Below, in pieces: positions 5,345-64,000 of a DNA stretch of 64,000 nucleotides. Below the pieces are notes generated by a model that worked only from the letters and a program-made list of their open reading frames with translations, had not been told where the DNA came from and made no database searches. Every line of letters begins with the position of its first letter. Position 1 is the stretch's first letter. The translations under genes and the position numbers were made by a program. This stretch comes from Aerophototrophica crusticola (GTDB lineage: Bacteria > Pseudomonadota > Alphaproteobacteria > Azospirillales > Azospirillaceae), in the NCBI GenBank assembly GCA_001939945.1, contig MOEB01000001.1, positions 203,595 to 267,594 on the forward strand, written 5' to 3'.

Positions 5345-7690
5345 ATGCAGATCAAATCCTGCGCCGTGATCGGCTCGGGCGTGATGGGCAGCGGCATCGC
5401 CGCCCACATCGCCAACGCCGGCATTCCCGTCATGCTGTTGGACATCGTCCCCCAGTCCGTGAAGGACAATGGGGGCGACCGCTCGGTGGTGGCCAAGACC
5501 GCCATCGAGAAGATGCTGAAGACCGACCCGGCACCCTTCATGCACAAGAAGGCCGCCAGCCTGGTCACGCCGGGCAACCTGGAAGATGACTTGCCCAAGC
5601 TGGCCGACGTCGACTGGATCGTCGAGGCCATCGTCGAGAACCCGGCCATCAAGGCCGACCTCTACAAGAAGCTGGACGGGGTGCGTAAGGCCGGTTCGGT
5701 GGTGTCGTCCAACACCTCCACCATCCCGCTGAACATCCTGCTCCAGGGGCAGAGCGAACGGTTCGCCGCCGACTTCATGATCACCCACTTCTTCAACCCG
5801 CCGCGCTACATGCGGCTGCTGGAGGTGGTGAAGGGTGAGAAGACGCGCGACGACGCCTTCCAGGCGGTCAGCGCCTTCTGCGACGTGGTGCTGGGCAAGG
5901 GTGTCGTCCGCTGCAAGGACACGCCGGGCTTCATCGCCAACCGCATCGGCACCTACTTCATGCAGGCCGCCGTCAACGAGGCCATCGACGGCGGGCTGAC
6001 GGTGGAGGAGGCGGACGCCATCTCCGGCAAGCCCATGGGCCTGCCGAAGACCGGCACCTTCGGGCTGATCGACCTGGTCGGCCTGGACCTGATGCCGCTG
6101 ATCTCCAAGTCGCTGCTGTCCACCCTGCCGCAGGACGACGATTATCGCCGCATCTACCGGGACAACCCGCTGGCGGCGAAGATGATCGCCGAGGGCTATA
6201 CCGGCCGCAAGGGCAAGGGCGGCTTCTACCGCCAGACCAAGCTGCCGGACGGCAAGCGCCTGCGTGAGGCCATCGACCTGCGGACCGGTGAGTACCGCAA
6301 GTCCGGCCGCGCCTCGCTGGAGTCGGCCAATGCCAAGGGCCTGCGCGCCCTGGTGGAGACCAAGGACAAGGGCGGCCAGTACGCTTGGCGCGTGCTGAGC
6401 CAGAGCCTGTCCTACGCCGCCGACCTGGTGCCCCAGATCGCCGACGACGTGCAGTCGGTGGATGAGGCCATGCGCCTTGGCTACAACTGGAAGTTCGGGC
6501 CGTTCGAGATGATCGACCAGCTCGGCACCGGCTGGTTCGCCGAGATGCTGGCCGCCGAGGGCAAGCCCGTCCCCCACATGGTGAAGCTGGCCGCCGGCCG
6601 GTCCTTCTACCGGACCGAAGGGGCGAAGCTGCAGTTCCTGGGCACCGACGGCGACTACCATGACGTGGTCCGGCCGGAGGGCGTGCTGCTGCTGTCGGAC
6701 GTGAAGCGCGGGTCCAAGCCGGTGGCGAAGAACGGCTCCGCCAGCCTGTGGGACATCGGCGACGGCGTGCTTTGCCTGGAGTTCACCTCCAAGATGAACG
6801 CCCTGGACGCGGACATCATGGCGATGATCCGCAAGTCCATGGAGATCATCGGCGACGGCAAGTCCGGCTCGTTCAAGGCCCTGGTGGTCCACAACGAGGC
6901 GTCCAACTTCTCCGTCGGCGCCAACCTCGGCCTCGCCCTGTTCGCCCTGAACATCGGCCTGTGGCCGCAGGTGGAGCAGTCGGTCGCCGATGGGCAGCAG
7001 ACCTACAAGGCCCTGAAGTACGCCCCGTTCCCCACCGTGTCCGCCCCGTCGGGCATGGCGTTGGGCGGCGGCTGCGAGATCCTGCTGCACTCCAGCGCGA
7101 TCCAGGCGCACGCGGAGCTGTATACCGGTCTGGTGGAGGTCGGCGTCGGCCTGCTGCCGGGCTGGGGCGGCTGCAAGGAGATGGTCTTCCGCCACACCAT
7201 CAACAAGAAGCGGCCGGGCGGCCCCATGCCCCCCATCGCCACCGCCTTCGAGATGATCTCCACCGCCAAGGTGGCGAAGTCCGCCTTCGAGGCGCGTGAC
7301 ATGCTGGTGCTGCGGCCGGCCGACGGCATCACCTTCAACAAGGACCGGCTGCTGGCCGACGCCAAGAAGAAGGCGCTGGAGCTGGTGGCCGCGGGCTACA
7401 CGCCGCCGGAGGAGGTGAAAATCCGCCTGCCCGGCCCGGGTGCCCGCGCGGCCCTGGAGAACGCGGTGGAGGGCTTCGCCGCCCAGGGCAAGGCCACGCC
7501 CCACGACGTGGTGGTGTCTGGCGCTGTCGCCACGGTGCTGAGCGGTGGCGACACCGACATAACGGTGGAGGTCAGCGAGGACGACCTGTTGGAGCTGGAG
7601 CGGAAGCACTTCATGGCCCTGGTGAAGACCAAGGGCACCATCGACCGCATCGAGCACATGCTGGAGACCGGCAAGCCGCTGCGGAACTGA
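5345..7690 (+). CDS. 3-hydroxyacyl-CoA dehydrogenase / enoyl-CoA hydratase (FadN-like)
   Basis: A 781-residue bifunctional beta-oxidation enzyme with domain order dehydrogenase first, hydratase second, as in FadN-type proteins and unlike FadB/FadJ. The N-terminal Rossmann motif is VIGSGVMGSGIAAH (residues 7-20). The dehydrogenase core shows THFFNPPRYMRLLEVV and KDTPGFIANRIGTYF. The C-terminal crotonase domain (about residue 470 on) has VGANLGLALFALN and GMALGGGCEILLHS with the oxyanion-hole glycines, followed by LLPGWGG. The start ATG 5345 follows AGGGGAGG. It is the second gene of the thiolase operon. It hydrates enoyl-CoA and oxidises 3-hydroxyacyl-CoA with NAD to give the thiolase substrate. 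The repeat pair just downstream may act as an operon end. Confidence 0.94.
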   Translation: MQIKSCAVIGSGVMGSGIAAHIANAGIPVMLLDIVPQSVKDNGGDRSVVAKTAIEKMLKTDPAPFMHKKAASLVTPGNLEDDLPKLADVDWIVEAIVENPAIKADLYKKLDGVRKAGSVVSSNTSTIPLNILLQGQSERFAADFMITHFFNPPRYMRLLEVVKGEKTRDDAFQAVSAFCDVVLGKGVVRCKDTPGFIANRIGTYFMQAAVNEAIDGGLTVEEADAISGKPMGLPKTGTFGLIDLVGLDLMPLISKSLLSTLPQDDDYRRIYRDNPLAAKMIAEGYTGRKGKGGFYRQTKLPDGKRLREAIDLRTGEYRKSGRASLESANAKGLRALVETKDKGGQYAWRVLSQSLSYAADLVPQIADDVQSVDEAMRLGYNWKFGPFEMIDQLGTGWFAEMLAAEGKPVPHMVKLAAGRSFYRTEGAKLQFLGTDGDYHDVVRPEGVLLLSDVKRGSKPVAKNGSASLWDIGDGVLCLEFTSKMNALDADIMAMIRKSMEIIGDGKSGSFKALVVHNEASNFSVGANLGLALFALNIGLWPQVEQSVADGQQTYKALKYAPFPTVSAPSGMALGGGCEILLHSSAIQAHAELYTGLVEVGVGLLPGWGGCKEMVFRHTINKKRPGGPMPPIATAFEMISTAKVAKSAFEARDMLVLRPADGITFNKDRLLADAKKKALELVAAGYTPPEEVKIRLPGPGARAALENAVEGFAAQGKATPHDVVVSGAVATVLSGGDTDITVEVSEDDLLELERKHFMALVKTKGTIDRIEHMLETGKPLRN

Positions 7691-8608: not shown

Positions 8609-10402
<1,794 letters not shown>

Positions 10403-14303: not shown

Positions 14304-14390
14304 AGTGAAAGGCTGCCCGCGTCAGGGTCGCCCCGGCGCAAGGTCGAACCCGGCCCCACGGGCCCTATCCCGATGCCCAGGAGTGATGGG

Positions 14391-14624
14391 ATGTCCGACA
14401 CCGATGTCCTGTTGGATTGCAGCGGCCTGATCTGCCCCCTGCCGGTGCTGCGGGCGCGCAAGCGGCTGAAGGACCTGGCCGATGGGCAGGTGCTGCGGGT
14501 GCTGGCCACGGACAAGGCGGCACCCCGGGACTTCGAGACCTTCTGCCGTGAGGCGGGCCATGGCCTGCTGGAGAACGCAGGCGCGGACGGGGTCTACTCC
14601 TTCCGCATCCGGAAGGGCGGCTGA
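14391..14624 (+). CDS. TusA-family sulfur carrier
   Basis: A 77-residue SirA/TusA fold protein: LDCSGLICPLPVLRARKRLKDL with the CPxP motif (active Cys15). Such proteins carry persulfide sulfur between sulfurtransferases for tRNA thiolation, molybdenum cofactor or sulfide oxidation. Start ATG 14391 follows AGGAG. It is single, divergent from the persulfide-sensing repressor, so its likely job is handling sulfane sulfur under sulfide stress rather than housekeeping tRNA thiolation; this is inferred from the neighbour. Confidence 0.9.
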   Translation: MSDTDVLLDCSGLICPLPVLRARKRLKDLADGQVLRVLATDKAAPRDFETFCREAGHGLLENAGADGVYSFRIRKGG

Positions 14625-57601: not shown

Positions 57602-58023
57602 ATGGCCCCTGGGCAGCCGGGAACTTCCTTCCGGGCGGAACGGCGCCTGTTGCAGGCGGTGGTGGCCCTGCTCTGCCTCGTGCCCTTGTCGGCAGGGCTG
57701 GCGGGTGTGCTGGTGGGGCCGGCCATGGTGGGAGAGGGGCCGGGAACCCCGCCGGACCTGGACAGCCACTACCGCTACCTATCCGGCATCTTCCTGGGGG
57801 TGGGCTTGCTGTTCGCCTGTACCGTGCCGCCATCGAACGGCGCGGGGCGGCGTTCCGTCTGGGCACGGCGCTGGTGGTGCTGGGCGGGCTGGGGCGGCTG
57901 TTGTCCCTGCTGTTCCACGGTGCGCCGACCCTGCCGCACCTGGTCGGGTTGGGCCTGGAGCTGGGTGTGGTGCCGCTGCTCTGCCTATGGCAGGGGCGGG
58001 TGGCGCGACTGACCGGGGATTAG
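57602..58023 (+). pseudogene. DUF4345-like membrane protein gene, frameshifted
   Basis: The first part (MAPGQPGTSF...LSGIFLGVGLLFA) reads in one frame to about 57817; the continuation (LYRAAIERRGAAFRLGTALVVLGGLGRLLSLLFHGAP...LTGD) is in the -1 frame up to the TAG at 58021-58023. Joining them by one extra base in GCC(C)TGTACC gives a four-helix protein of about 140 residues of DUF4345 type. The 136-residue ORF that stays in frame 1 has a Trp/Cys-rich, non-protein-like tail. It is either a true mutation or a sequencing error. Family assignment moderately sure. Confidence 0.75.
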
Positions 58024-58171
58024 AGCGTGTTTACGCTGACCGTAAACACGCTCCGGCGGCGACTGCCGCCGCGCGGGCCCATGCCCGCGTAAGCCAAGCC
58101 GCGGATGCGGTGCCGGCGTGTGAGGAACACGAAAGGCTAGACCCGTTTCCAGCCTGCGGGAAACGGGTCTA
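58021..58171. repeat. Family-B repeat flanked by two hairpins
   Basis: Hairpin GCGTGTTTACG-CTGAC-CGTAAACACGC (58025-58051), then a family-B copy (GCGTAAGCCAAGCCGC...GCCGGCGTGTGAGG), then hairpin AGACCCGTTTCC-AGCCTGC-GGGAAACGGGTCT (58138-58170). The TAG of the ABC transporter gene (58171-58169) lies at the edge of the last hairpin, and the TAG of the DUF4345 gene at the left edge. Confidence 0.75.
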
Positions 58172-60001
58172 AGCCCCCACGGCCAGCCGCCCGGCCTGTT
58201 CCACCTGCACCACCCGGAACAGGCGGCTGGCGGGGTCGCGGGCCAGTTGCTGGAAGGGGCCGGTCTCCACCAGCTTGCCGTCCTCCACCATCACCACCGT
58301 GTCGGCGAAGGCCATCATGGACAGGCGGTGGGCGATGGTGACCACGGTCAGGCTGCCGCGCAGGCCGGCGATGGCGGCGGCGATGGCGGCCTGGCTGTCC
58401 CCGTCCAGGGCGCTTGTGGCCTCATCCAGGATCAGCAGGCTCGGCTTGCGCAGCAGGGCGCGGGCCAGGGCGATGCGCTGCCGCTCCCCGCCCGACAGGC
58501 GTGTCCCCCGCTCCCCCACCAGCGTGTCGAGCTGCTGCGGCAGGCGCCGGACCAGCAGCTCGGCGGAGGCGAGGGAGAGGACATGCCACAGCTCCGCGTC
58601 CGTGGCATCCGGGGCGGCCAGCTTCAGGTTGGCCCGCACCGTGTCGCAAAGCAGGAAGGTCTCCTGCGGGACATAGGCCACCTGTGCCCGCCAGGCGCGC
58701 AGCGTCTCCGGGCCCAGGGGCACGCCGTCGATGCTGATCGTCCCGGCGGAGGGGCTGAGGAAGCCCATGACCAGGTCGGCGATGGTGGTCTTGCCGCTGC
58801 CGGACGGACCCACCAAGGCGGTGACCTGGCCCGCGGGGATGCTGAAGGAAAGGTCCTTCAGGATGGGCTCGTTGCCCGGATAGCCGAAGCCCACCCGGTC
58901 GAACCGCACGGCCCGGGACAGGGCGGGCAGGGGTGCCCGGCCGGCCGACGCGGTGGCGGCCTCCGGGTCCGCGGCCAGGCGGCGTTGCAGGGCGCGGGCG
59001 GCGCGGAAGGACGGCACCATGAACAGGAAGCCCTGCAACGAACTCTGCGCCTGGCCGAACAGGGGCGACAGCCGGGCGAACAGGATCACCAGCACCAGCA
59101 GCTCTGCCGCCGGTAGGGCCAGCACCTCCAGCCCCACATAGAGGAAGCCGCAGAGGGCGGCGGCGCCCATGACCTGGAACAGCAGCGCGCTGGCCTGTTG
59201 CAGGCGGGAGACGGAGAAGGTGGCCGCCTTCACCCGGTCCAGGGCGCCCTGGAACTCCCCGACATAGCGGGCCTCGGCCTGGAAGCTCTTGGCAACCTTC
59301 AGCCCGCCCAGGAACTCGCTGACCGTGCGGAACAGCTCCTGCCGGCTCTCCCCCACCGCCATGCCGCTGCGCACCACGCGGCGGCGCAACGGGTAGAGGA
59401 TGGCGAACATGGCAAGGCCGCTCAGCATCACCACCGCCGTGGCCAGCGGCGCCACCAGCAGGGAGATGGCCAGGTACACCGCCGCCATGGCAAGGGAGTT
59501 GGTGAGCTGCAACAGGGCGTTGGTGGCGCCCTCGATGCGCTGCACGTCGTTGGTCAGCATGTGGTTGATGTCGGCTGTGCGCAGGCGGGCGATGCCGGAC
59601 CAGCGCGCCGCGGCGAGGCTGCGGTACAGGGAGCCGCGCATATGGTCGGTGAACTCCACCACCAGCCGGGTCAGGTAGACGTTCTTGACCGAGACGAAGA
59701 TGCTGCGCAGGGTGATCAGCAGGAAGCAGGCCAGCAGCGCGCCGGACAGGGTGGCGGGCAGGCCCACCGCGTCCAGCGCCCGTGACAGGGCAGCCCCCAG
59801 GCCGGACCGCGTCTCCGACAGGCCGGCCAGTTCCAGGGCAGGGATGAAGACCAGCAGCGATAGCCCTTCCATCAACCCGCCCAGCAGCAGCAGGGTCAGG
59901 GCGATGGCCAGCTTGTGCCGGGCCTGGCCCGCCAGGGCGCGGGCGAAGGCGAACACGCCGTCCTCGCCGTCCACGCGGCGGAGGGGCAGGATGCGGGCCA
60001 T
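58169..60001 (-). CDS. Lasso peptide exporter, ABC transporter with fused permease and ATPase
   Basis: A 610-residue half-transporter. Six membrane segments in the first 330 residues (KLAIALTLLLLGGLMEGLSLLVFI...), then an ATPase: Walker A GPSGSGKTT, Q-loop YVPQETFLLC, signature LSGGERQ, Walker B SLLILDEATSALD, H-loop IAHRL. A type-I exporter without N-terminal peptidase domain, like McjD-type D proteins of lasso clusters. Start ATG 60001 lies three bases after the NTase stop, so it is coupled to that gene. It exports the mature peptide and probably confers immunity. Confidence 0.92.
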   Translation of the reverse strand: MARILPLRRVDGEDGVFAFARALAGQARHKLAIALTLLLLGGLMEGLSLLVFIPALELAGLSETRSGLGAALSRALDAVGLPATLSGALLACFLLITLRSIFVSVKNVYLTRLVVEFTDHMRGSLYRSLAAARWSGIARLRTADINHMLTNDVQRIEGATNALLQLTNSLAMAAVYLAISLLVAPLATAVVMLSGLAMFAILYPLRRRVVRSGMAVGESRQELFRTVSEFLGGLKVAKSFQAEARYVGEFQGALDRVKAATFSVSRLQQASALLFQVMGAAALCGFLYVGLEVLALPAAELLVLVILFARLSPLFGQAQSSLQGFLFMVPSFRAARALQRRLAADPEAATASAGRAPLPALSRAVRFDRVGFGYPGNEPILKDLSFSIPAGQVTALVGPSGSGKTTIADLVMGFLSPSAGTISIDGVPLGPETLRAWRAQVAYVPQETFLLCDTVRANLKLAAPDATDAELWHVLSLASAELLVRRLPQQLDTLVGERGTRLSGGERQRIALARALLRKPSLLILDEATSALDGDSQAAIAAAIAGLRGSLTVVTIAHRLSMMAFADTVVMVEDGKLVETGPFQQLARDPASRLFRVVQVEQAGRLAVGA

Positions 60002-60004
60002 GGC

Positions 60005-61156
60005 TCAGCCCGCCCCGATGGTCCGGGCGACCCGGCGGGGCAGCACTTCCTTCCCGAACTCCCGCACCCGTGAGCTGAACTCGAACGCAAGATACGCGGG
60101 TCGGGGGCTCAGGCACATCATGTACAGGGTCGCCGAGGTGCGCGGGTCGCCCGACCGCCGCTCCGGCTTGCGCTGGCGGCGGAACAGGTGCTGGGCGCCA
60201 TGGGCCAACAGGTAACGCACGCTGGCCACCTGCTCCGCCCTGGCCCGGGCCGCGTCGGGGATGGGGCTGCCCAGCAGGGCGTTGGCGAAGACCATGCCCT
60301 GGATGACGGGGCCGCCCACGCCCAACCGGTCGGCCGTGGCCAGCCAGGACCCCGCATCGTCAGGCTTGGCCCGGAGCATGCGGTCCAGGTCGCAGACCCA
60401 TTGCAGGCGGCTCCACTCATGCCGGGCGCCGTGGACGCAGAGGTAGGCGAACTGGTGCGCGTCGCCCATGACGCGGATCGTCTCCCCCCCGATGGCGAGG
60501 GGCTCGGCCTCGGCCCAGATCCCCGCGAAGGGCAGGGGCATCAGGTTGGGGTTGTGGTTCAGGCGGAAATGCAGTTCCACCAGCACGCCGGTGCGGGGGT
60601 TGCGGAACGCCTCCTCATAGCGCAGCCGCTCGGGCAGGCGGTCTTCCGGGTCGACCGGGTTCTCCCAGGGCAGGTAGCCGGCCTCGCGGAACAGCCGCTC
60701 CGCCTTGTTTCCATGCTCCGGCGCGACCAGCAGGTCCACGTCACCGGCCGTGCGGGCGGCCAGGCTGCCGTACCATTGCTGGGCCAGGGACACGCCCTTC
60801 ATGGGCACCGAAGGGATACCGGCCTCACGCAGCATGCGGGTCGCGGCCAGCAGCTCCTTCACCAGCCGCAGGCTCCAGTTCACGTTGCCGGCATACTCGC
60901 GGGCGAAGCGGCGGCTGGGGCAGTCGGGGCCACGGGCGGGCAGGGCGCTGATCCGCTCATGAACCCGCGGGATCACCTTCTGGCGACGCACGTCCAGGTC
61001 AAAGGCGGCCAAGTCGATCCCGTCGCCATAGGCAGCGGCGGCAAGCATCGCTTGGTCGATGTCGTCGCCCCCCCGGCAGAGCGCGGCCAACAGGCGCTGC
61101 TCCCGGCTCAGGCGGGCGGGGATGTCGGGCAGGGCGGGCGCGAAGGTGGACAGCAT
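60005..61156 (-). CDS. Nucleotidyltransferase-family protein of the lasso cluster
   Basis: A 383-residue protein of the NTP_transf_5 (PF14907-type) nucleotidyltransferase family that accompanies many lasso clusters of the paeninodin/pseudomycoidin sort. Core: PSVPMKGVSLAQQWYGSLAARTAGDVDLLV with the DVDLLV acidic pair (metal/NTP site), ERLFREAGYLPW, RTGVLVELHFRLNHN and AYLCVHGARHEWSRLQWVCDLDRML. It probably modifies the peptide tail (nucleotidylation or glycosyl transfer), the reaction is not established. ATG 61156 lies after the precursor terminator; the in-frame extension to 61261 covers that hairpin and is unlikely. No kinase is seen within the window. Confidence 0.88.
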   Translation of the reverse strand: MLSTFAPALPDIPARLSREQRLLAALCRGGDDIDQAMLAAAAYGDGIDLAAFDLDVRRQKVIPRVHERISALPARGPDCPSRRFAREYAGNVNWSLRLVKELLAATRMLREAGIPSVPMKGVSLAQQWYGSLAARTAGDVDLLVAPEHGNKAERLFREAGYLPWENPVDPEDRLPERLRYEEAFRNPRTGVLVELHFRLNHNPNLMPLPFAGIWAEAEPLAIGGETIRVMGDAHQFAYLCVHGARHEWSRLQWVCDLDRMLRAKPDDAGSWLATADRLGVGGPVIQGMVFANALLGSPIPDAARARAEQVASVRYLLAHGAQHLFRRQRKPERRSGDPRTSATLYMMCLSPRPAYLAFEFSSRVREFGKEVLPRRVARTIGAG

Positions 61157-61187
61157 CCGGGCCCCTGGGGCAGTGGACCAACCACAG

Positions 61188-61223
61188 AGAAAAACGCCGG
61201 CCGGGGGGATGCCCCGGCCGGCG
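61188..61223 (-). terminator. Strong hairpin with U-tract between lasso precursor and nucleotidyltransferase genes
   Basis: In minus-strand direction the stem CGCCGGCCGGGG/CCCCGGCCGGCG (plus-strand 61195-61206 with 61212-61223, 5-base loop) is followed by TTTTTCT. It lies about 68 bases after the precursor stop and 39 before the next start. It probably lets the precursor be made in excess, with partial read-through to the export genes. Confidence 0.9.
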
Positions 61224-61275
61224 GTCGGGATGGTGGGAAGGCCGTGCGGCCCTGCCATCATCCCTCAGGCCATCG

Positions 61276-61289
61276 GACCCCGAAGGGTC
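61276..61289 (-). other. Small UUCG-loop hairpin at the end of the precursor gene
   Basis: Minus-strand GACCC-TTCG-GGGTC, starting two bases after the precursor stop codon. Such a stable cUUCGg-like loop may protect the precursor mRNA 3' end. Confidence 0.6.
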
Positions 61290-61290
61290 G

Positions 61291-61431
61291 TCAGGACGCC
61301 CCGCCCGGGTTGGGGAAGGCGTTGTTGGCGGTCTGACCATCATCGCTGTTCGGCAGGGACGAACCCTCGGTGCCGATCAGGTCGATCTTCTCATAGTCCG
61401 GGCGGGCCCAGGCCATCTTGCTCTCAGTCAT
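61291..61431 (-). CDS. Lasso peptide precursor (46 aa)
   Basis: A 46-residue gene, too short for routine calling. Leader MTESKMAWARPDYEKIDLIGTE (22 residues) and a 24-residue core starting GSSLPNSDDG and ending FPNPGGAS. The leader shows Trp8-x-x-Pro11 and penultimate Thr21; Pro-to-Thr spacing of 10 matches the paeninodin leader as I remember it (Y-x-x-P...T-M). Core Gly1 with Asp8 or Asp9 can close an 8- or 9-residue macrolactam. The last residue is Ser, the phosphorylation point in paeninodin. RBS GGGAG is 7 bases before ATG. It lies between B2 and the nucleotidyltransferase gene, in agreement with cluster logic. Confidence 0.9.
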   Translation of the reverse strand: MTESKMAWARPDYEKIDLIGTEGSSLPNSDDGQTANNAFPNPGGAS

Positions 61432-61519
61432 GTTACGCTCCCGTTGGGTTGGAGAAGCAGGTTTCAATTGCTACAGAACCAAGTCACCATCAATCTTCCA
61501 TCCGGAGCCTCTCCGAAAG

Positions 61520-61538
61520 TACCAAATAATACCAAATA
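61520..61538. promoter_or_regulatory. Tandem TACCAAATA direct repeat upstream of lasso precursor
   Basis: TACCAAATA at 61520-61528 and again at 61530-61538, period 10 bases (one helical turn). About 90 bases upstream of the precursor start. This looks like a site for a regulator dimer. Confidence 0.55.
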
Positions 61539-61579
61539 CGGCGACTGACGGTTCCGAATAGAAGTTATAGTGAAGGAAC

Positions 61580-61614
61580 AAAAAGCGGCGCGCCGGCAAA
61601 AGCCGGAGCGCCGC
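61580..61614 (-). terminator. Terminator after lasso protease B2 gene
   Basis: Minus-strand stem GCGGCGCTCCGGC-TTTT-GCCGGCGCGCCGC (one internal mismatch) followed by TTTTTG. It separates the B1-B2 unit from the precursor. Confidence 0.9.
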
Positions 61615-61633
61615 GTCCACTAATAAAGGTTGC

Positions 61634-62080
61634 TCAGGAGAACTTGGCGATACAGGTGTACTGGTCCATGTGCTCCTCCCCGGTGAGCACCACAGCCCCG
61701 GCGCGCAACCAGGCATGGGCCGCCGCCCGCCCCTGCACCCCCGGCTCGGGCCGTAGGGCGACGCCGAGATAGAGGGTAGAGCCGATGCCCCGCCGCCGCA
61801 GCATGGCCTTCGCCGCCATGGCCCGGGGCAGGCAGACCGCGTTCCAGGGCACGTGGCGGGCCGCGGCCCGCACCGCCCACCGGATACGGGCGACCTCACG
61901 CTCCTGGGCCGGGCTCAGCCTCTCCCCCGTCTCCCCGTGCAGCCGGCCCAGGTCGGGCTTGCGCCGCATCAGGTGTCCCAGGAGGATGCGGGCCCGGGCG
62001 CGGGCCAGTTCCCCCACCGCCTCCGCCAGCAGCCGGCGGTCGGCGCCGGTGACGTCAAGCAGCCTGCGAAGCTTGCGCAT
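61634..62080 (-). CDS. Lasso leader protease B2 (transglutaminase-like Cys protease)
   Basis: A 148-residue transglutaminase-fold protease that removes the leader peptide together with B1. Catalytic Cys83 in PWNAVCLPRAMAAKAMLRRRG and His122 in AHAWLR; the Asp is less obvious but DQY at the end is a candidate. It overlaps the B1 gene by 26 bases (translational coupling). Start ATG 62080; the longer frame upstream is B1 antisense-frame sequence. Family sure. Confidence 0.93.
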   Translation of the reverse strand: MRKLRRLLDVTGADRRLLAEAVGELARARARILLGHLMRRKPDLGRLHGETGERLSPAQEREVARIRWAVRAAARHVPWNAVCLPRAMAAKAMLRRRGIGSTLYLGVALRPEPGVQGRAAAHAWLRAGAVVLTGEEHMDQYTCIAKFS

Positions 62081-62363
62081 GGTCGGCCCGGACAAGGTTG
62101 TCCCGCTGCAGGCGCCCCAGGAAGGCCAGGGTGTCGGCCCGGCAAATCTCCCGCTCCACGGCATAGGCGGTGCAGAGTTCCTCACACAAGTCCGCGACGC
62201 GGCGCGGCGTTTCCAGCCGCGCCCAGATGTCGGCGCCCAGCGGGTTCAGCACGAAATAGGTGCCCGTCTCCACATCCATCAGGGCCTTCTGGTTGCCCCC
62301 GATGTCGGCCATAACCAGGCCGGCGCACTGCGCCACGACGGTATCCAGATCCATCGCCGCCAT
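62055..62363 (-). CDS. Lasso B1 leader-recognition protein (PqqD-like)
   Basis: A 102-residue PqqD/RRE-fold protein: LMDVETGTYFVLNPLGADIWARLETPRRVADLCEELCTAYAV is the typical core. It binds the precursor leader and presents it to the B2 protease and the cyclase. RBS GGGGGAG precedes ATG 62363; a second ATG nine bases downstream is possible. First gene of the leftward unit, divergent from the cyclase gene. Confidence 0.92.
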   Translation of the reverse strand: MAAMDLDTVVAQCAGLVMADIGGNQKALMDVETGTYFVLNPLGADIWARLETPRRVADLCEELCTAYAVEREICRADTLAFLGRLQRDNLVRADHAQASQAA

Positions 62364-62698
62364 TCAGGACTCCCCCATGATCGTTCCGCGTGCTCTACCC
62401 TTCCCAAGAAGCGAGGTGGGTGCATCGCAGTATTTCTGGCCTGACAGTGGTACCGGTGACCTTCATGGGTCCAGAGGCGAGGCGAATTACTCCGCCTGAG
62501 AGATGCCGCAGCGCGAAAGCTGCCATACCCAGCGCCCCTGTCTTCTGCATCATCTTCGCGAAGGCACGAGGAGCCTCCCCCGCCTGGGGCCATTCTTCTT
62601 TCCCAGGCTTTGCGGCGGTCTGACCGAAAAATCGGGTTATTGGGTCGCCGGAAGGGGTGGGGTCGCGGGCCGGGGCACCTGGATCGGGGGTAGCGGAC
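62364..62698. other. Divergent intergenic region between B1 and the cyclase gene
   Basis: 335 bases. It must hold promoters for both directions, but none is obvious. A minus-strand frame of about 100 codons (62700 down to 62395, start ATG sharing the CATG at 62698-62701 with the cyclase start) is open; it lacks a ribosome-binding site and has weaker host-like codon bias, so I treat it as probably non-coding. Confidence 0.5.
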
Positions 62699-64000
62699 AT
62701 GGCAACCATCAGCGGGACGGTCGGCACCAGCTTCGCCGCAAGGGACCGGGCCGATGCCGACCGGGGAGGGGTGGGGTTATCGGGATTAGGGGGTGCGTGG
62801 CGCTCATCCCAGGCGGAGCTTCGCGCCGTGGTGGAACCCCTCCTGCCGGCGGAAAGCCTTGAGCGGCAACCGGTCACTGGAGGCGGCGGGCGTTTCGTGC
62901 TGGTGGCCGACGCCTGGTTGACGGAACGGGGGGACCTGCGGGGCGCGTTGGGCATCCCGCGGGAGCAACCCCTGTCGGACTCCGCCCTGATCATGCGGGC
63001 GTTTGAGCGATGGAAGGAGGATTGCGTCCACCACCTGTCCGGCGCCTTCGCCTTCGCCGTATGGGACACGTCCGACCGCACCCTGTTCTGCGCCCGCGAC
63101 CCGTCGGGCCGGCGGCCCCTCTTCTATGCCCGGCTGCCCCAAGGGTTTGCCTTCGCCTCCTCCGTCCGGCAGCTGCTCGACATTCCGGGGGTCCGTCGTG
63201 ACCTGGACCTGGAGCGGGTGGCGGGACAGCTTGCCCATCTGGTGGCAGACCACGAGGGCACCTATTTCAGCCACATCCGCCGCCTGCCGCCGGCCCACCG
63301 GCTGACCTTCGGCCCCGGCGGGTCGGCGCAGCCCCGCCGGTACTGGTCCGCGCAGGACATGAAGATGCTGCGCTTCGCCGACCGGGACGAATATGCCCGC
63401 GAGCTGCGCCGCGTGCTGGACGATGTGGTGGGGGAGTTCGCCTCCGCCCCCAGCCCGCTGGGCATCAAGCTGTCGGGCGGGCTGGACAGCTCCTCCCTCG
63501 CCTGCCTGCTGGCGCGGACCTTGGACCGGTCGGGGCGGCGGCTGGCCGCCTTCTCCTCCGTCCTGCCGGAGGACCATGTGGGGCCGGAGGAGGATGAGCG
63601 GCCCTACATGGAAATGGTGGTGGCCCAGGAGCGGAACATCGACCTGACCTATGTCACGGGCGGCGACGCCTCGCCGCTGGACCGGTTGGGGGACAGCATC
63701 GACATCCTGGCGGCCCCGCCGCGCAATGCCTTCGACTACATGAATTTCCGGCTCTGGGCCGAGGTGAAGCGGCAGGGGGTGAGCCTGCTGATGGACGGGT
63801 TCGGGGGCGATGCCTTCGCGTCCTACCAGCACCCCGCCTATTTCCTGCAACTCCTGGCGTCCGGGCGGCTGTTGACCCTGGACCGGGAGATGAAGCTGCT
63901 GGCCCGCTCCTACCGCATGCGGCGCAAGGACCTGGTCAAGCACGTGCTGGCGCCCCTTGTGCCCGATAGCTGGATGCGCTCGAACCAGCGGCTGAACAAC
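62699..64000 (+). CDS. Lasso cyclase (asparagine-synthetase-B-like), 3' end cut by window
   Basis: At least 434 codons remain, running off the right edge. ATP-dependent isopeptide-bond-forming cyclase: it adenylates the Asp/Glu side chain and closes the ring on the N-terminal amine. N-terminal amidotransferase-like part lacks the usual Cys nucleophile after Met (starts MATISGTVGTSFAA), with HHLSGAFAFAVWD, FCARDPSGRRPLFYA. The synthetase part has the PPi loop motif LSGGLDSSSLACLLAR (SGGLDSS at residues 259-265) and a DGFGGDAFASY region. ATG 62699 follows GGGGG; upstream frame gives no better start. Confidence 0.92.
   Translation, partial: MATISGTVGTSFAARDRADADRGGVGLSGLGGAWRSSQAELRAVVEPLLPAESLERQPVTGGGGRFVLVADAWLTERGDLRGALGIPREQPLSDSALIMRAFERWKEDCVHHLSGAFAFAVWDTSDRTLFCARDPSGRRPLFYARLPQGFAFASSVRQLLDIPGVRRDLDLERVAGQLAHLVADHEGTYFSHIRRLPPAHRLTFGPGGSAQPRRYWSAQDMKMLRFADRDEYARELRRVLDDVVGEFASAPSPLGIKLSGGLDSSSLACLLARTLDRSGRRLAAFSSVLPEDHVGPEEDERPYMEMVVAQERNIDLTYVTGGDASPLDRLGDSIDILAAPPRNAFDYMNFRLWAEVKRQGVSLLMDGFGGDAFASYQHPAYFLQLLASGRLLTLDREMKLLARSYRMRRKDLVKHVLAPLVPDSWMRSNQRLNN

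Follow-up and report, generated by a model that had tools for sequence, protein, structure and literature searches.

What peptide is made by the gene cluster at the right-hand end of our Aerophototrophica crusticola window, and how might that peptide be modified? The window is the whole stretch of 64,000 nucleotides that we analyzed (contig MOEB01000001.1, positions 203,595 to 267,594 of the forward strand; G000:C1:203595-267594 among our locus labels), and the locus that continues it is labeled L006. We propose that the cluster specifies a class II lasso peptide with an 8-residue ring, the C-terminal Ser of which would be phosphorylated by a kinase, K, and possibly hexosylated by a nucleotidyltransferase-family protein, N, as in pseudomycoidin. 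By analogy with characterized clusters, we assign this reading a probability of about 0.85. The kind of peptide cluster is known, and the present one is one more member.

Gene content of the cluster

The first-pass annotation had described a lasso-peptide cluster with a divergent cyclase, in which the genes for B1, B2, the precursor (A), a nucleotidyltransferase-family protein (N) and an ABC exporter (D) read leftward and the cyclase gene (C) rightward. We found all six genes close to where it had placed them, and profile searches returned the RRE and cyclase homology, the lack of which it had named as part of what would refute it. Gene content, conserved residues and conserved core positions were read directly from the DNA and its translations. 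The genes in the window are:

58169-60001, minus strand: D, ABC exporter with permease and ATPase in one chain, 610 amino acids (PF00005, 119.5 bits; PF00664, 55.9 bits)
60005-61156, minus strand: N, nucleotidyltransferase-family protein, 383 amino acids (PF14907 NTP_transf_5, 168.3 bits against a cut-off of 31.2)
61291-61431, minus strand: A, precursor of 46 amino acids, with a 22-residue leader (to TE) and a predicted 24-residue core (GSS...GAS); orthologue in Oleisolibacter albus
61634-62080, minus strand: B2, leader peptidase, 148 amino acids from the ATG (NF033537, 86.8 bits against 33; PF13471, 83 bits against 26)
62055-62363, minus strand: B1, free-standing PqqD-like RRE, 102 amino acids (PF05402 PqqD, 68.7 bits against a cut-off of 23.4)
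62699-64000, plus strand: C, lasso cyclase of the asparagine-synthetase family, first two thirds within the window (PF00733; the whole protein scores 105.4 bits, cut-off 21)

All three parts that define a lasso-peptide cluster, namely an RRE (B1), a leader peptidase (B2) and an asparagine-synthetase-like cyclase (C), were thus present. The profile search detected a GATase domain in C besides the asparagine synthase domain, and its translation contains SGGLDSS. Cys83 and His122 of B2 stand where we take the catalytic pair of such a peptidase to lie.

The cluster had been drawn as ending at position 64000, which proved too short. The end of the window cuts C, and the continuation completed a cyclase of 650 amino acids that ends at window-equivalent position 64651. 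Directly behind it, outside the window, we found K (313 amino acids; window-equivalent 64651-65592, L006:10246-11187), the start of which is the last base of the C stop codon. Because K lies outside the window, the kinase-tailored type of the cluster had been missed. Once the genome beyond the window was added, the full module read D-N-A-B2-B1 / C-K.

An orthologous module in Oleisolibacter albus

A search of the family (82 genomes) returned cyclase matches with E-values no higher than 1e-60 from two genomes only, the source genome and O. albus NAU-10, also of the Azospirillaceae. The O. albus module (L013/L016) matches ours gene for gene, all seven keeping their order and relative orientation, with identities of 49% for B1, 55% for B2, 61% for A (over 38 residues), 47% for N, 56% for D, 49% for C and 47% for K. 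It differs in being inverted relative to neighboring glycosyltransferase genes and in carrying a 2OG-Fe(II) oxygenase gene (PF13640, 58.6 bits; L013:10390-11040, plus strand) a few bases after D, the product of which is a candidate hydroxylase for the peptide. K and a secreted glycosidase, which are separate genes in the source genome, lie in O. albus in one 1110-codon open frame with no stop between them (L013:768-4097, minus strand), for which a fusion and an internal start are alternatives. A third O. albus cyclase locus, L015, holds two candidate precursors (7236-7409 and 8713-8886, minus strand) with nearly identical leaders, different cores and a C-terminal Ser in both; the 12 kilobases (kb) examined there showed neither B1 nor B2 nor K.

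The precursor and its predicted core

The precursor search gave the same pair of genomes: at E 0.01, A was found in 2 of the 82, the source genome and O. albus (E 1.2e-10). Since the O. albus orthologue also adjoins N and B2, A is more than a chance open reading frame (ORF). The precursor of this cluster is MTESKMAWARPDYEKIDLIGTE/GSSLPNSDDGQTANNAFPNPGGAS and that of O. albus is MQHTQKSLWIDPSFEKINLIGTE/GADQPNSDGQPGADNAFPNPDPLS, where the slash marks the predicted cut. The two cores, aligned by eye, match without gaps over 24 residues and are identical at 13 of them, including Gly1, Ser7, Asp8 and Ser24. The conserved leader pattern is W(-15)xxP(-12)x[YF](-10) together with T(-2).

Lasso precursors are reported to have Thr(-2) at the leader end and Asp or Glu at core positions 7-9 (PMC10368454); Thr(-2), Gly1 and Asp8 are identical in both orthologues. 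Asp8 is the sole acid at an allowed ring position common to the two cores, with Gly1 as its predicted partner, and the comparison of two orthologous precursors thus narrowed the ring residue and the core to one likely choice. Three other choices were dropped. A core start at Asp30, obtained by YxxPxL spacing from Tyr13 (Y at -17), leaves no acid at ring positions 7-9, and the Tyr13 register was abandoned because W and P are conserved at -15 and -12 in O. albus. Starts at Gly20 or Thr21 likewise leave no acid at 7-9, and an isopeptide at Asp9 would meet a Gly in O. albus. For the 24-residue core, the predicted monoisotopic masses are 2255.97 for the lasso peptide, 2335.93 with one phosphate and 2497.99 with phosphate and hexose.

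The set of W(-15), P(-12) and the aromatic residue at -10 is likely the RRE-binding motif. In the crystal complex of the paeninodin-like PbaB1 and PbaA, W-15, P-12 and L-10 are described as lying in the RRE cleft (PMC13381572), and the spacing of W(-15), P(-12) and residue -10 in our leaders is that of the PbaA leader, with WxxP present. Both orthologues end in Ser24. We searched 30 loci for the W/P/-10 spacing, allowing a shift of one residue in each direction and excluding ORFs that overlap cluster genes; these loci were 26 hand-picked alphaproteobacterial ones (27 of 41 B2 match rows), this cluster and three from O. albus. The search returned 19 small ORFs, 15 of which have a C-terminal Ser. 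First-order Markov controls gave 18 in five sets (3.6 per set, one ending in Ser) and reversed sequences gave 2, counts that are raised because the controls were not masked for genes.

Kinase and nucleotidyltransferase

K carries LHAG at 111, GESGAGKTT at 127 and SDD at 149, the His, P-loop Lys and Asp-Asp set of HPr-kinase-like K proteins, and mutagenesis is reported to show that this set matters in lasso kinases (PMC9266682; PMC10368454). Among 22 aligned K proteins, Gly132 and Lys133 were invariant, and His112, Gly127, Asp150 and Asp151 were at least 90% conserved. Similarly, K120-G121, R135, D139-x-D141, H196 and D256 were invariant in 12 aligned N proteins, and Asp139, Asp141 and Lys120-Gly121 are consistent with an active nucleotidyltransferase-type site. 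Solved structures offered weak or partial relatives: 3tqf was the best match for K (E 6.2e-4), and the best match for N was weak (E 0.11).

The presence of N (NTP_transf_5) alongside K is the pseudomycoidin type of gene content, provided that PsmN itself belongs to PF14907. By analogy, N likely acts on the phosphorylated peptide. The group that it moves may be a nucleotide or a hexose, a question shared with PsmN, and this cluster offers another substrate for testing the chemistry of N.

Proposed biosynthesis and its alternatives

In the route that we propose, B1 would bind the leader at W(-15)xxP(-12)x[YF](-10) and pass the precursor to K, which would phosphorylate Ser24 as the most likely site. 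B2 would then remove the leader by cleaving behind the Thr(-2)-Glu(-1) pair. C would next close an 8-residue ring through a bond between the Gly1 amino group and the Asp8 side chain, leaving a tail of 16 residues. N would add a group, by precedent a hexose, to the phosphate, and D would export the product. All catalytic steps and their order are taken from precedent, as are the lasso topology and the modification site: PadeK, ThcoK and SyanK are reported to phosphorylate a C-terminal Ser, and so is PsmK, together with hexosylation by PsmN, in pseudomycoidin (PMC9266682).

Several observations weigh against this proposal. Three proteins scored below the curated cut-offs of narrow NCBIfam models: B1 at 64.2 bits against 80 for NF033536, C at 328 against 525 for NF033535, and K at 38.5 bits (E 6.8e-10) against 200 for TIGR04352, although the hits of B1 and C are strong ones. 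A matched no NCBIfam or Pfam family at E up to 1, so that we file it with the paeninodin type by its gene content and leader and not by a curated precursor family. The count of 19 motif-bearing ORFs is not an independent test, since candidates were already known when the motif was defined, and four of them lack a C-terminal Ser (a plainly spurious one in L068, two in L072 and one in L087). Finally, the chief doubt concerns the phosphate site, since both cores also share Ser7 and BsfK is reported to act within the ring (PMC10368454).

On this last point, the cluster might make a lasso peptide in which K modifies a serine of the ring, either Ser7, which stands beside the ring Asp and is identical in both cores, or Ser2 or Ser3. 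BsfK acts in this way at Ser3 of BsfA, in a cluster that also holds both K and N (PMC10368454). Ser2 and Ser3 are, however, replaced by Ala and Asp in O. albus, a C-terminal Ser closes 15 of the 19 motif-bearing ORFs, and this residue is reported to be extremely conserved in precursors that accompany such kinases (PMC9266682). The case of BsfA also differs because BsfA ends in Asp. We consider a ring serine an unlikely target. We give still less credence to the idea that these genes form a linear polyphosphorylated peptide (LPP) module and that the cyclase serves another peptide, which we regard as hardly probable. The RRE, K, N and D do correspond to four of the five conserved LPP genes, that type comprising an RRE, an HprK-like kinase, an NTP transferase and an MsbA-like exporter (PMC13381572). 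On the other hand, LPP clusters are defined by a signal peptidase, which replaces B2, and by the lack of a cyclase, whereas both genomes here carry B2 and C, although no signal peptidase gene was looked for. The leader motif has W where LPP leaders are reported to have Y (PMC13381572), and Gly1 and Asp8, which would close the ring, are the same in both cores.

How common the arrangement is

The B2 domain model matched in 33 of 385 sampled genomes of the class, a figure that may include fused B proteins. In the 30 loci, B2 occurred at 29 places, 22 with C within 8 kb and 7 without. The 22 include two from L074, this cluster, a second cluster of the same genome and two O. albus clusters, and proteins of this cluster served to build the profiles, a choice that favors the finding of similar relatives. 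K was nearby at all 22 (22/22), N at 11 and C on the opposite strand at 10; at the other 7 places, K was present in 2 and absent from 5. A divergent C and the K/N pair are ordinary in the sampled alphaproteobacterial loci. As the first-pass annotation said, the gene order is unlike that of compact A-C-B1-B2 operons; among relatives, however, it is common, with C opposite B2 at 10 of the 22 places. The exact order D-N-A-B2-B1/C-K was seen only in the source genome and O. albus among these loci. Since K lies near every counted B2 with a cyclase, lasso peptides that carry phosphate may be widespread among Alphaproteobacteria; the 22/22 count is a lead and not a survey, because the profiles were grown from kinase-type clusters.

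The second kinase-type lasso cluster of the source genome (L063, G000:C24:104000-122500) has C, K, B2, B1 and D on one strand, and a possible precursor with a C-terminal Ser lies about 2.9 kb from it (L063:2059-2427, plus strand). The L072 cluster has two adjacent K genes plus N, and its two candidate precursors (L072:14057-14218 and 14381-14578, minus strand) show the W(-15) layout. As neither precursor ends in Ser, the L072 kinases may use another site.

The product had also been called undescribed. Consistent with this, we found no description of this cluster in titles and abstracts of the open-licence literature, a scope outside which most subscription journals fall; the cluster type, on the other hand, is the known kinase- and nucleotidyltransferase-tailored one of paeninodin and pseudomycoidin. 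What the locus adds to that type is an Azospirillaceae pair of orthologous clusters. A check for plasmid origin returned three plasmid records with distant cyclases (28-33% identity) and no match for A.

Hairpins and transcription

Two hairpins followed by U-runs flank A on the minus strand, in agreement with the terminator-like element predicted on each side of the precursor:

61223-61195, minus strand: hairpin between A and N, terminator- or attenuator-like, 12 G-C pairs and then TTTTT (z -4.42)
61614-61585, minus strand: hairpin between B2 and A, terminator-like, U-run at 61584-61580 (z -5.13)

For each of them, 0 of 200 shuffles folded as well. The B2/A hairpin is absent from the list given by a consensus terminator scan, and a simple consensus sigma-70 scan of 57900-63000 found no promoter. 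From the hairpins and the gene orientation, and nothing further, it is a fair inference that there are three transcription units: B1-B2, A (with N and D by read-through) and C-K. The corresponding hairpin and U-run after A in O. albus, in very G+C-rich sequence, was no more stable than its shuffles (z -0.28), 68 of 200 of them reaching a fold as good, and folding of the O. albus B2-A stretch gave no clear terminator and no clear counterpart of the window hairpin. We also noted a 14-pair hairpin directly 3' of D (58134-58172, minus strand) and, just past it, an inverted repeat seen by eye, agcgtgtttacg...cgtaaacacgct, at 58024-58052. Next to D on that side, the window encodes a DUF4345 protein and an esterase-like one.

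The secreted glycosidase and its neighborhood

Behind K lies one further gene, followed on the other strand by glycosyltransferases and a polysaccharide exporter:

L006:11208-13316, outside the window: glycosidase-like protein, 702 amino acids (PF11790, 19.3 bits, below the cut-off of 21)

The protein has an apparent signal peptide by eye, and its best solved structure is 5jvk (E 3.9e-15). A second, shorter homologue (41% identity; G000:C1:296639-297586, L100) lies about 25 kb along the same contig. Could the glycosidase belong functionally to the lasso cluster, perhaps by trimming a sugar installed by N? It stands behind K in both genomes that carry the module, and the only near-full-length matches among the 82 family genomes came from these 2; one further genome gave a partial match. 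The glycosyltransferase genes shared by the two genomes are 64.7% and 45.0% identical; since the modules are oppositely oriented relative to them, the glycosidase has moved with C-K. Against such a role, partial homologues in the alphaproteobacteria G355 and G171 (38% identity) lie near ORFs similar to the exopolysaccharide genes of this locus, and the 11 and 18 kb examined around them contain no lasso gene; nor did the glycosidase turn up in the 28 other cluster loci. G355 carries a K/N lasso cluster on another contig (L068). Because these distant homologues without lasso genes lie near exopolysaccharide-like ORFs, we favor a role in polysaccharide metabolism; the glycosidase is probably exopolysaccharide-related, and its membership in the peptide pathway is doubtful. 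Far more speculative is a single system that makes both the lasso peptide and a cell-surface polysaccharide, in which a sugar placed by N on the phospho-serine would tie the peptide down and the glycosidase might release it. Both genomes do have the module next to the same glycosyltransferases of exopolysaccharide type, oppositely oriented in the two, and in both the secreted glycosidase stands behind K.

Comparison with known systems

The paeninodin ring has nine residues. Relative to paeninodin, an N gene is added here and the predicted ring closes at Asp8. The cluster of Paenibacillus dendritiformis resembles ours in its split B1 and B2, HPr-kinase-like K, C-terminal Ser and ABC exporter (PMC9266682, PMC5067487), and paeninodin-like precursors are reported to have the W(-15)xxP(-12) leader seen in A (PMC13381572). 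The paeninodin construct is given as padeCAB1B2D (PMC5067487), whereas in our cluster C and K are read from the other strand than the remaining genes. Judged by sequence, the layout of A, with Gly1, Asp8, C-terminal Ser24 and a 24-residue core, is of the paeninodin type.

The pseudomycoidin cluster of Bacillus pseudomycoides likewise contains both a K and an N, PsmK being reported to phosphorylate the C-terminal Ser and PsmN to add one or two hexoses (PMC9266682). Our cluster differs from it in host phylum and core sequence, and hexose transfer by N is here a prediction. The Bsf cluster of Bradymonas sediminis shows A, B1, B2, C, D, K and N all in a Gram-negative, as here; it is described as having Ile(-2) and Y(-17) in the leader, a phosphate on ring Ser3 and a precursor that ends in Asp (PMC10368454). 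The precursor of A. crusticola, by comparison, has Thr(-2), W(-15) and a C-terminal Ser.

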